A DNA stretch of 64,000 bases from Candidatus Proruminimicrobium quisquiliarum (GTDB lineage: Bacteria; Elusimicrobiota; Endomicrobiia; Endomicrobiales; Endomicrobiaceae): the NCBI GenBank assembly GCA_018433245.1, contig JAHDRN010000009.1, forward strand, positions 1 through 64,000. The letters run 5' to 3'. How positions within the stretch are numbered: position 1 is the stretch's first letter; each line of letters starts with the position of its first letter. A model generated the notes under the pieces. It was given only the letters and a program-made list of their open reading frames with translations. It searched no databases and had not been told where the DNA came from. This document shows, piece after piece, positions 4,226 through 38,127 of this stretch. The translations under genes were made by a program, and so were the position numbers.

Positions 4226-4278
4226 GCCTGTCGGCTTTTAAAAACCTTTTTATATTTTTCATTTTATAAAATGAAAAT

Positions 4279-23499: not shown

Positions 23500-23740
23500 C
23501 AGCTAAAATCTTAAATCCTCTAACTGCCAAAATAAAAGCAAAAAAGTTCACTTAGCTCCAAACTCTAAAGCCTAAAGGCAACTACAGAAACTTCACTTTG
23601 AAAATACTTCATCTCATTACGAAAACTTAAAGCCTTAAACGACAAAGACAAAAACAAATTACTCTACAGCTAAAATCTTAAATCCTCTAACTGCAAGACA
23701 AAAGCAAAAAAGTTCACTTAACTCCAAACTCTAAAGTCTA
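23500..23740. repeat. Direct repeat pair of about 75 bp
   Basis: A unit starting CAGCTAAAATCTTAAATCC and ending ACTCTAAAGCCTA occurs at 23500-23574 and again at 23667-23740 (167 bp apart). Between them lies part of a family B arm (CTTCACTTTGAAAATACTTC). No gene is visible in 23355-23795. Confidence 0.7.
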
Positions 23741-29940: not shown

Positions 29941-30018
29941 CGAAAACTAAACTATCAAATTGAGGTTACAGAATTTATGAAACTTTATAGATTAGAATAA
30001 ATTCAAGGAGAAATGCTT

Positions 30019-30555
30019 ATGTCTTTTATAATATATAATCATTCTATTAATCCTATATACAATCATTCTATTAATCCAACATACAATCATTCTATTAATC
30101 CTATATATAATCATTCTATTAATCCCATATACAATCATTCTATTAATCCAACATACAATCATTCTATTAATCCTATATACAATCATTCTATTAATCCAAC
30201 ATACAATCATTCTATTAATCCTATATATAATCATTCTATTAATCCTATATACAATCATTCTATTAATCCTATATATAATCATTCTATTAATCCGACCTAT
30301 AACAAAAATGCCAATGTTTTTTTTATTTTCAATAAAAATAATATTTCGTCTTCTTTTGCAATAAAAACAAATTTGCCAAATTATTTATTAATTTTTGACG
30401 ACCAACTACAAATGATCAAATATGCAATATATAATAATAATCTTACTGGATATAATATATTTGACAAAAATAACAATTGGATAGAATATTCAGTAGAAGC
30501 TAACAAATGCAATTTAATTTTCACTTCCAATTCTATATGGATTAGTTATTTTTAA
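30019..30555 (+). CDS. Octapeptide-repeat protein, possibly beta-flower-like C-terminus
   Basis: The 178-aa protein begins MSFII and then carries 11 copies of YNHSINP(I/T). The C-terminal 80 residues alternate short strands, with YNIFDKNNNWIEYS and CNLIFTSNSIWISYF. From memory this pattern resembles the small 4-fold beta-flower proteins that follow SINP-type repeats, but this is uncertain. The ATG at 30019 is chosen over the ATG at 30013 because AAGGAG (30005-30010) then has an 8-nt spacing. It lies 78 bp after the restriction enzyme and 13 bp before the TPR protein. Confidence 0.7.
   Translation: MSFIIYNHSINPIYNHSINPTYNHSINPIYNHSINPIYNHSINPTYNHSINPIYNHSINPTYNHSINPIYNHSINPIYNHSINPIYNHSINPTYNKNANVFFIFNKNNISSSFAIKTNLPNYLLIFDDQLQMIKYAIYNNNLTGYNIFDKNNNWIEYSVEANKCNLIFTSNSIWISYF
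30034..30297 (+). repeat. 24-bp tandem repeat, 11 units, in frame
   Basis: Eleven uninterrupted 24-bp units encode YNHSINP(I/T). The units differ mainly at the last codon (ATA or ACA/ACC, Ile or Thr) and at silent positions. The repeat length is a multiple of three, so copy-number changes would keep the frame. Confidence 0.95.
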
Positions 30556-31789: not shown

Positions 31790-31826
31790 AATTAATTTAT
31801 AAAATTTGGTTTCTATAATTATTAAA

Positions 31827-31933
31827 GGCTTTAAGTTTTCGTAATGAAATGAAGTTTTTTCAAAGTGAAGTTTACGTAAGTGAAACGGTAAATGAGCTTT
31901 GAAAATACAAAATTGAATAGAAAAATTAAAGCC
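31827..31933. repeat. Family B hairpin repeat, copy B4
   Basis: Outer arms are GGCTTTAA and TTAAAGCC. The inner stem TTTTCAAAG/CTTTGAAAA surrounds an apical part with TTTAC and GTAAA. In B1 the same apical pair reads TGTAC/GTACA, a paired change. Confidence 0.85.
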
Positions 31934-32026
31934 GTTATAAAAATGTAATTGAGTGGAAGCAAAAGTTACATAAGCTTTTTAAATACAAAATTGCAGCCGA
32001 AATATTAAAGCCGCTATAGAGAGAAT

Positions 32027-32521: not shown

Positions 32522-32557
32522 CAAAAAATTTTAAACTTCTTTTAAAAAAGAAAAAAC

Positions 32558-33060
32558 GTGGGTGGTTGACCCACAGCAAGTTACTTTTTATTACGAGTCT
32601 AAAAAGTTCAGGACAAGCTAACAGATATAAAGCAATTGTGTTAGCTGTCAAAACAGATGATATGCAAGGCAGATTGACGAAGTAATAGCGAGTCTATTAC
32701 GAGGAAGTCTAACGAGGCAGAGCGCTGTTTGGGCGCTAACCCTTCGGGCTGCGTTACTTTTTGATAAATTTGTACATTTTGTTTGTAAAGTAGTGGAAAC
32801 TACTCTCCTGCACAAAATATACAAATTGATTTTCAAAAATTTTAGCAGCACAAATATTTTATATTTGTTAGATTGTCCTCAAAAAAGACCCACCGCAGAG
32901 TATATTCCTTTATATTTTTTACTGCCATCGCTGAACTTGAATTTTCCTTACGGCATAATGAAACGGAAAATTCTTCAAACAAACAGCGATTAAAAATTTA
33001 TCTATTTTAAATTTTTACAGTAAAAAATATTGCAGTCATGACATACTCTAATGCGGTAAC
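32558..33060 (+). repeat. Family A structured repeat, copy A5, interrupted by an insertion
   Basis: H1 is GTGGGT-GGTTG-ACCCAC. P3 pairs ATATTTTTTACTG with CAGTAAAAAATAT (13 bp, perfect), P4 pairs ATCGCTG with CAGCGAT, P5 pairs GAATTTTCC with GGAAAATTC, and P6 pairs AAAAATTTA with TAAATTTTT. The H2 hairpin is broken by the 274-bp element at 32608-32881, so that element arrived after the repeat. Confidence 0.85.
32608..32881. mobile_element. MITE-like element nested in a family A repeat
   Basis: The ends form imperfect terminal inverted repeats. The left end reads TCAGGACAAGCTAACAGATA and the right end, reverse-complemented, TGAGGACAATCTAACAAATA; similarity continues for about 10 more bases. 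It interrupts the H2 hairpin of copy A5 and replaces about four bases there, with no clear target duplication. Inside are hairpins GTAATAG/CTATTAC and AGTAGT/ACTACT and the stretch GCTAACCCTTCGGGCTGCG. It has no transposase gene. Confidence 0.75.
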
Positions 33061-33294: not shown

Positions 33295-33876
33295 ATGAAA
33301 ATTTTAGAAGAAGGAAAAACTTTCTTAGTATTTGCAGGAGCAAATGGCAGCGGGAAAAGCACAATAGCTGAAGAATTCTTAAAAACTGAACGATTTGATT
33401 ATATTAATGCTGATGATATTGCAAAAAAGATGAACCCTACAGACATATCAAAAGTTCGTATATCCGCAGGAAAAGAATTTAACCACAGAATAAATAATAA
33501 TTTCGAATCGGGTATATCTTTCGCGATTGAAACTACTTTGTCCGGTAATACATATATTTCTACTTTTAAAAAAGCTAAATATTTAGGTTATAAAATTATC
33601 TTAGTCTATACTTTCGTTGATAATCCTCAAGTTTGTATTGAAAGAATAAAAACAAGAGTACAAAACGGTGGACATTTTATTCCGGACGAAGATGTAATAC
33701 GAAGATATTCAAGAAGTAAAATTAATTTTTGGACACGATATAAAAATTTATCAGATACTTGGCTAATGTATTATAACGGTTCGTCAAATTACATACTGGT
33801 TGCTCAAAAAGAAAATGAAAATGACATTGAAATTCTAGATGAAAATTTATATACTCTTTTTAGAGAAAATTTATGA
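33295..33876 (+). CDS. Zeta-toxin-like P-loop kinase
   Basis: The 193-aa protein has Walker A GANGSGKST (residues 15-23) and YINADDIAKKMNP, like the substrate Asp of zeta toxins (UDP-GlcNAc kinases). FAIETTLSG and RIKTRVQNGGHFIPDEDVIRR follow, the latter being the lid with Arg residues. The family is often called AAA or zeta toxin family protein. Whether it is a toxin is unproven. It overlaps the 56-aa gene downstream by ATGA, so the pair is translationally coupled. Confidence 0.85.
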   Translation: MKILEEGKTFLVFAGANGSGKSTIAEEFLKTERFDYINADDIAKKMNPTDISKVRISAGKEFNHRINNNFESGISFAIETTLSGNTYISTFKKAKYLGYKIILVYTFVDNPQVCIERIKTRVQNGGHFIPDEDVIRRYSRSKINFWTRYKNLSDTWLMYYNGSSNYILVAQKENENDIEILDENLYTLFRENL

Positions 33877-34043: not shown

Positions 34044-34235
34044 AATTTATTTCTTGTTTATCTTATAACCTTATCTGTTTTGGTAAAGTTATTTTTTTAT
34101 TGTAAGTAATAAAAACAAAATACCAGTTTTCCCTAAATTTCCATATTATTTTCAGATTTTCAACTTTTCTTTATCTGTTGTTGTCGTTTTAGGATTCAAG
34201 ATTTGAGCTGAAATATCGTATTGGTCGTTTTTAAA

Positions 34236-34342
34236 GGCTTTAAGTTTTCGTAATGAAATGAAGTATTTTCAAAGTGAAGTTTACATAAGTGAAGCGGTAA
34301 ATGAGCTTTGAAAATACAAAATTGAATAGAAAAATTAAAGCC
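34236..34342. repeat. Family B hairpin repeat, copy B5
   Basis: GGCTTTAAG at the left and TTAAAGCC at the right form the outer arms. The inner stem is TTTTCAAAG/CTTTGAAAA and the apex contains TTTACATAAGTG. It lies just beyond the 3' end of the small-RNA-like gene at 34356-34449. 34044-34235 holds nothing else recognisable. Confidence 0.85.
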
Positions 34343-34355
34343 GCTATAGGTATCC

Positions 34356-35508: not shown

Positions 35509-35742
35509 TTATGGGGGATTGCCCCTTTGCAAGTTACTTTTTGTCTCGAGTCCAAAAAGTAACCAAAAAGACCCACCGCAGAATACATTCCTTTATATTT
35601 TTTATTGCCATCACTGAACTTGAATTTTCCTTACAGAATAATGAAACGGAAAATTCTTCAGACAAACAGCGATTAAAAATTTATCTATTTTAAATTTTTA
35701 CAATAAAAAATATTGCAGTCATAGACATATTCTAATGCGGTA
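35509..35742 (+). repeat. Family A structured repeat, copy A6
   Basis: H1 is degenerate (GGGG/CCCC). H2 pairs TTACTTTTT with AAAAAGTAA with a CTCGAG-containing loop, P5 pairs GAATTTTCC with GGAAAATTC, and P6 pairs AAAAATTTA with TAAATTTTT. It is nearly identical to A7 and in the same orientation; together they flank the gene at 35764-36270. Confidence 0.85.
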
Positions 35743-37904: not shown

Positions 37905-37990
37905 CAGAAGTTGGGCTGTTGGGTGGATTTGCAAAGCAAACCGAAGTAGCTTGGAGGCTTGGAAGCTGAGTAACGACTTTAACGAAGCTT
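37905..37990. repeat. Family C repeat
   Basis: It contains GGATTTGCAAAGCAAACCGA (with the hairpin TTTGC-aaa-GCAAA) followed by AGCTTGGAGGCTTGGAAGCT. The same module occurs at 39775-39820 and, inverted, at 58850-58880. Confidence 0.65.
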
Positions 37991-38007
37991 GTTTTTTTGC
38001 AGTTAAA

Positions 38008-38114
38008 GGCTTTAAGTTTTCGTTATGAAATGAAGTATTTTCAAAGTAAAGTTTACATAAGTGAAACGGTAAATGAGCTTTGAAAATACAAAATTGAATA
38101 GAAAACTTAAAGCC
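38008..38114. repeat. Family B hairpin repeat, copy B7
   Basis: GGCTTTAAGTTTTCG and GAAAACTTAAAGCC form the outer arms, and TTTTCAAAG/CTTTGAAAA the inner stem. It lies 13 bp from the stop codon of the methyltransferase gene at 38128. Confidence 0.85.
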
Positions 38115-38127
38115 GTTATATCTCTTT

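Follow-up and report, generated by a model that had tools for sequence, protein, structure and literature searches.

A probable TA-inserting miniature transposon family of the Elusimicrobiota with a putative conserved structured RNA in its interior

What is the 274-bp insert that interrupts a hairpin repeat of Candidatus Proruminimicrobium quisquiliarum at 32608-32881 of the window (the 64,000-nucleotide stretch analysed here, positions 1 to 64,000 of contig JAHDRN010000009.1, assembly GCA_018433245.1): a mobile element, an RNA gene, or both? The host genome, G000, comprises 1.94 Mb and belongs to the family Endomicrobiaceae of the phylum Elusimicrobiota. The feature is probably a TA-inserting non-autonomous DNA transposon, a miniature inverted-repeat transposable element (MITE), belonging to an Elusimicrobiota-wide family that carries in its middle the sequence of a conserved structured RNA, about 130 nt long and probably transcribed. 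This answer draws on the inverted ends, the dispersed non-homologous copies, TA at most clear ends, the empty sites of relatives and covariation within the interior.

A MITE-like element of this extent, with imperfect inverted ends of about 30 bp, had been proposed from the sequence of the window alone (the original prediction). It is present at 32608-32881, its ends pair over about 34 bp (32607-32640 with 32849-32882, as an imperfect inverted repeat), and it is indeed short, non-coding, multi-copy and dispersed. No open reading frame (ORF) of 100 amino acids lies within 32608-32881, a short element thus without a transposase gene of its own. Its parts are:

32608-32881, plus strand: whole mobile element, 274 bp; sense is defined by the strand that carries the structured core
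32608-32637, plus strand: left terminal inverted repeat
32852-32881, minus strand: right terminal inverted repeat
32639-32767, plus strand: structured core conserved through the phylum (covariance model R1)
32758-32839, plus strand: AT-rich imperfect palindrome (apical hairpin), a reverse self-match of the second copy (L005)

When folded, the entire element forms a giant imperfect palindrome, and both strands fold far better than their shuffled counterparts (z of -7.4 and -8.6). From 5' to 3', the core consists of a long helix (GTTAGC.../...GCTAAC) around an inner helix and a CAATAG/CTATTG-type hairpin, with a CCC/GGG hairpin last. The stretch GCTAACCCTTCGGGCTGCG, which contains the 3' strand of the long internal helix and the small CCC/GGG hairpin, is among the better conserved portions; the original prediction placed similar stretches in unrelated bacterial genomes, and it does recur within the Elusimicrobiota, but collections of phages, plasmids and viruses yielded no match.

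The element is not alone. The host genome holds a second copy, 96% identical to that of the window (C23:115779-116052), together with two diverged relatives, while three close copies were found in its congener G001 and one full and two partial copies in G011, a genome of another genus. Diverged relatives (L003/L004, L008) have in common the core of about 130 nt, in which their base changes compensate one another. From this core a covariance model, R1, was built and searched in 341 Elusimicrobiota genomes, revealing relatives in 33 of them, many multi-copy, and from 7 to at least 10 matches in each of nine carriers. These match counts are lower bounds: no more than ten candidates per genome were scored, all genomes are drafts and certain copies lie at contig ends. 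Copies of the family have a median length of 274 bp, and terminal inverted repeats of 28-36 bp, present in nearly all clear copies, vary by lineage (for example TAGAGTGTGTTCACAC, TACTGAGCTTCGC, TAGTGTAGCG and GGTTAAGCAAAGCC). TA stands at both ends in 37 of the 58 clear copies, other self-complementary dinucleotides in 2-9, and insertions elsewhere in the phylum occupy varied TA sites at non-homologous places; the comparison of occupied with empty sites comes from sister species, with no exact strain pair, and the TA of the window copy is degraded. Dispersed, too, are short forms with little beyond the two ends, of 54-56 bp and also of 83-188 bp. TA-bounded palindromes of 54-56 bp made up of the two ends only lie, for instance, at G320:C43:49997-50052 and G321:C10:32483-32538. 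In format the family is that of the IS630/Tc1-mariner-type MITEs. The element had no match in phage or plasmid collections, two diverged relatives had none in plasmids, and viral contigs scanned for the pattern of the core gave no match. We found no paper on such repeats in Elusimicrobiota, and a 2024 survey of Endomicrobia genomes mentions transposons only in general (PMC11257099); the family is apparently not previously described.

An ordinary immobile RNA gene or regulatory hairpin would also display a conserved structure, but the many non-homologous copies per genome, their sharp TA-bounded ends, the insertions in other repeats and in transfer RNA (tRNA) genes and the empty sites of sister species contradict it and make it extremely unlikely. 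The original prediction had set membership of the inverted ends in an RNA gene against mobility; the two are not exclusive, for the interior behaves as a structured RNA would that is conserved and moves about at the same time.

The evidence for such an RNA lies in the pattern of base changes. Across 103 aligned cores, 92.5% of the base-pair cells hold standard pairs, compared to 68.4% after shuffling and 34-53% when slid, and 33 of the 34 pairs have changed on both sides (740 such cells), although the covariation P-values are inflated by sequence relatedness and the helix set was derived from sense-strand folding. A structure-blind alignment of 48 non-redundant cores yielded double changes in 32 of the 34 pairs, with 144 G-U pairs against 74 A-C combinations, and the sense strand has the more stable fold in 39 of the 48. 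Inner helices, set apart by conserved internal loops, covary no less than the outer palindrome, and the core persists through complete turnover of the ends between lineages. The interior is thus a putative functional structured RNA of about 130 nt, for which the case from sequence is strong but not final, and the RNA itself seems to be under selection. Rfam at a permissive E-value returned only the tRNA itself and chance microRNA matches far below the gathering score, and gave no match to a group I intron core or to OMEGA-type RNAs.

Template switching can homogenise the arms of a palindrome and thereby mimic covariation. The family may then consist of passive MITEs with a functionless interior, their apparent covariation being the product of such quasi-palindrome correction between arms together with common descent. 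The palindromic form of the element as a whole is consistent with this, and the dispersal of deletion forms that have lost the core indicates that the core is not required for every mobilisation. Symmetric correction does not, however, predict the roughly two-fold excess of G-U over A-C in the structure-blind alignment, an asymmetry that suggests an RNA read from the sense strand rather than a DNA palindrome kept by template switching. The equal covariation of helices beyond the conserved internal loops and the survival of the core when the ends are fully replaced argue against a passive interior as well, and we regard it as unlikely.

Another branch of the family combines the element with a gene. 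In three genera, the tRNA-Gly(CCC) gene next to that of the CCA-adding enzyme harbours an element with an intact tRNA-Gly of its own, directly past the 3' arm of the AT-rich apical palindrome. In the host genome, the target, in the anticodon arm, is CCC-TA-GCTTCCC, with the expected TA. The nest there, at C23:66850-68000 (L213, minus strand, adjoining the CCA-adding enzyme gene) has three levels and one complete tRNA-Gly(CCC): from the left, the 5' part of tRNA-Gly and the left part of the element follow one another for three rounds up to the complete gene, to the right of which the right part of the element and the 3' part of the tRNA alternate for three rounds. The same locus has at least two levels in G001; G019 has one level, at a different TA of the tRNA-Gly gene, and G318 and G322 retain right-hand remnants at the tRNA-Gly locus. 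In most of the other 60 genomes of the family that were searched, tRNA-Gly(CCC) is single and intact, the sister species being plain, and where the flank is readable the plain gene comes after that of the CCA-adding enzyme. The cargo occupies one position of the element in G000, G019 and G322, past the apical hairpin and ahead of TTTCAAAAA..TAGCAGCGC, which suggests that the tRNA was probably captured once; we would guess by fusion of two element copies flanking a tRNA-Gly gene.

These features fit a model in which a transposase supplied in trans would cut at the inverted ends and join them at TA, while the interior would be kept because its RNA acts, whether for the element or in a manner tolerated by the host. 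One branch would have acquired a tRNA-Gly gene, so as to enter tRNA-Gly genes at TA and substitute for the gene it breaks, and a further copy could then enter the spare tRNA-Gly gene, giving rise to a nested series.

The window copy is a member of the branch that lacks a tRNA. In three genera this branch is found at a single, fixed position in the H2 hairpin of a dispersed repeat, family A. The interrupted repeat is arranged as follows:

32553-32577, plus strand: hairpin H1 of family A (GTGGGTGGTTGACCCAC), on the left flank of the insert
32580-32607, plus strand: rest of hairpin H2 of family A (GTTACTTTTT...AAAAAGT), on the left flank of the insert
32882-33058, plus strand: right portion of the interrupted family A repeat, with 94% identity to the intact copy at 35531

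Every complete close (tRNA-free) copy lies inside a family A repeat with an identical junction. At this point intact family A reads AAAAAGT-AACC-AAAAAGACCC, the interrupted copy of the window AAAAAGT-[TCAGGAC...GTCCTCA]-AAAAAGACCC, and occupied copies in general AAAAAGT-T(C/T)AGGAC...GTCCT(C/A)A-AAAAAG. The original prediction had the insert splitting H2 with the other parts of the repeat intact; it was right about H2, whose 3' arm (GTAAC) is cut, but the loss of four bases, AACC, had escaped it. Its order of events, repeat first and insertion later, is borne out: most family A copies in these genomes are free of the insert, and the close elements are 91-98% alike while identity of their family A surroundings falls to 65-89% across the 150 bp on the right and the left hairpin loops differ too, which makes the inserts younger than the repeats. 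The inserts hence reached one family A site repeatedly, through either insertion or very short-patch recombination. Family A (hairpin GTTACTTTTT..CGAG..AAAAAGTAACCAAAAAGACCC) is multi-copy and common to several genera (G000, G001, G011 and G020), with a related hairpin in G019; in the window its repeats lie at 4261, 14519, 15856, 21768, 32553, 35506 and 36281.

Besides template switching, several observations weigh against a TA-inserting transposon with an expressed RNA. Four target bases (AACC) are replaced in occupied family A repeats and a clean duplication is not seen; TA is mostly degraded in the family A copies, that of the window included, and likewise in old tRNA insertions. Plain TA insertion does not explain a junction that has lost AACC and is mostly non-TA, and an unoccupied site AAAAAGTT(T/C)AAAAAAG, from which simple TA insertion would produce it, was not found in the loci compared. 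Searches of the Endomicrobia carriers for an IS630-type transposase (DDE_3, NF033545) gave nothing above the cut-off, and G000, G001, G011, G320, G321, G021 and G128 showed no long pair of matching ends as far apart as those of a transposon; the search that the original prediction had proposed, for a transposase with the same inverted ends, thus came back empty in the carriers searched. Lastly, no promoter stood out in the window. The missing transposase and matching ends suggest that the mobiliser in Endomicrobia has been lost, is unrecognised or is of another type. G152 (family f16) does have an IS630 element, with ends of about 30 bp beginning CTAGT, and its own family members likewise start with CTAGT (CTAGTGTAGCG); the two have only the outer 5-8 end bases in common, so that the terminal style is the same and the ends are not. 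This IS630-like element (L321, G152:C1:50134-50985) has inverted ends of about 30 bp, CTAGTATRCGCGGCGATAAATTCTGAGCGGG, and one stop in its transposase frame.

The junction bears on a further possibility, that the family A copies never transposed and that recombination or gene conversion between family A repeats, themselves the mobile part, distributed a single insertion. The junction is identical in all copies down to its non-TA bases and the loss of AACC, as if these had travelled with the element. Such a spread would nevertheless need, at least six times over, a crossover within 6-8 bases on either side of the element, the loop and right flank differing right up to the A-tracts, and in other parts of the phylum this family does transpose; we consider it possible but rather unlikely.

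The fixed targets, both at hairpin bases (family A H2 and the anticodon arm of tRNA-Gly), and the conservation of the RNA core while the ends change could also reflect a site-specific element whose own RNA helps to choose hairpin targets, an idea comparable to the bridge RNA of IS110-type elements and to IStrons. No match to a known intron or OMEGA-type RNA came from Rfam, however, and insertions elsewhere in the phylum lie at varied TA sites. Nor did a recombinase partner emerge: end scans turned up no long end-to-end partner of the IS110/IS1111 type, although the DEDD recombinase itself was not searched for. RNA-directed targeting is therefore highly unlikely. A broader proposal, that the RNA is the true mobile unit, serving in mobilisation or targeting, able to acquire different ends and directing insertion to hairpins and tRNA genes, with one branch turned into a "harmless" parasite by the spare copy it carries of the tRNA gene it destroys, is speculative and strikes us as improbable.

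Other features surround the insert. A Zeta-toxin-like AAA protein (PF06414/PF13671) is encoded beside the element at 33295-33876, and at G011:C12 (L104) such a gene likewise lies beside an element remnant, on the opposite side; the genes neighbouring it are common to G001:C108 in a different order, suggesting a mosaic gene island. A tandem array of 24-bp units (29982-30365) lies within or at the start of an ORF at 30013-30555, and a dispersed repeat family, D5/D13 (138 nt, 86-91% identical), occurs at 31802-31939, 34211-34348 and 37983-38120, with inverted copies near 23588.

The closest known kind are the TA-ended MITEs of bacteria, among them Correia/NEMIS, RUP and ERIC (reviewed in PMC2229807). 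The IS630/Tc1-mariner-type MITEs, such as RUP of Streptococcus pneumoniae and Correia/NEMIS of Neisseria, are likewise short and non-coding, with inverted ends, many dispersed copies and TA at the termini (PMC2229807), where the present family has it at both ends of most clear copies. RUP and Correia/NEMIS measure less than 200 bp, whereas the present family measures about 274 bp, has no insertion sequence partner with the same ends that we could find, and differs in its phylum-wide covarying interior, its lineage-replaced ends and its tRNA-cargo branch. ERIC/IRU of enterobacteria also forms a long imperfect palindrome, has 5'-TA at its termini, folds stably as RNA and is present across related genera (PMC2229807), but we saw no relation in sequence or Rfam, and the present element is about twice as long and has a tRNA-carrying branch. 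Rickettsia palindromic elements (RPE) similarly insert into genes, including RNA genes (tmRNA and M1 RNA; PMC2229807); their inserts are tolerated within the RNA, whereas the present branch breaks a tRNA and supplies a spare complete one. The eukaryotic Dada DNA transposons also occupy specific sites in tRNA and small nuclear RNA genes, with one case of target-base replacement by an unknown mechanism (PMC3706591), yet they are autonomous DDE elements with duplications of 6-7 bp, depend on targets present in many copies and bring no spare gene along, in all of which the present element differs. IStrons, composed of a group I intron and an insertion sequence (PMC4227781), likewise tie a structured RNA to a DNA transposon; here there is neither a group I intron match nor a transposase, and the host gene is not restored by splicing.

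In the literature we found no described MITE family with an RNA core that outlives its ends, or with a replacement for the tRNA gene that it interrupts. MITEs are usually recognised through conserved ends that flank a decaying middle. The present family reverses this pattern, with a middle conserved over a phylum and ends that turn over, and the role of its RNA is testable. Its tRNA branch offers a clean natural case of a mobile element replacing an essential gene that it has broken, the order of events being recorded in the nested layers and in the empty sites of sister species.
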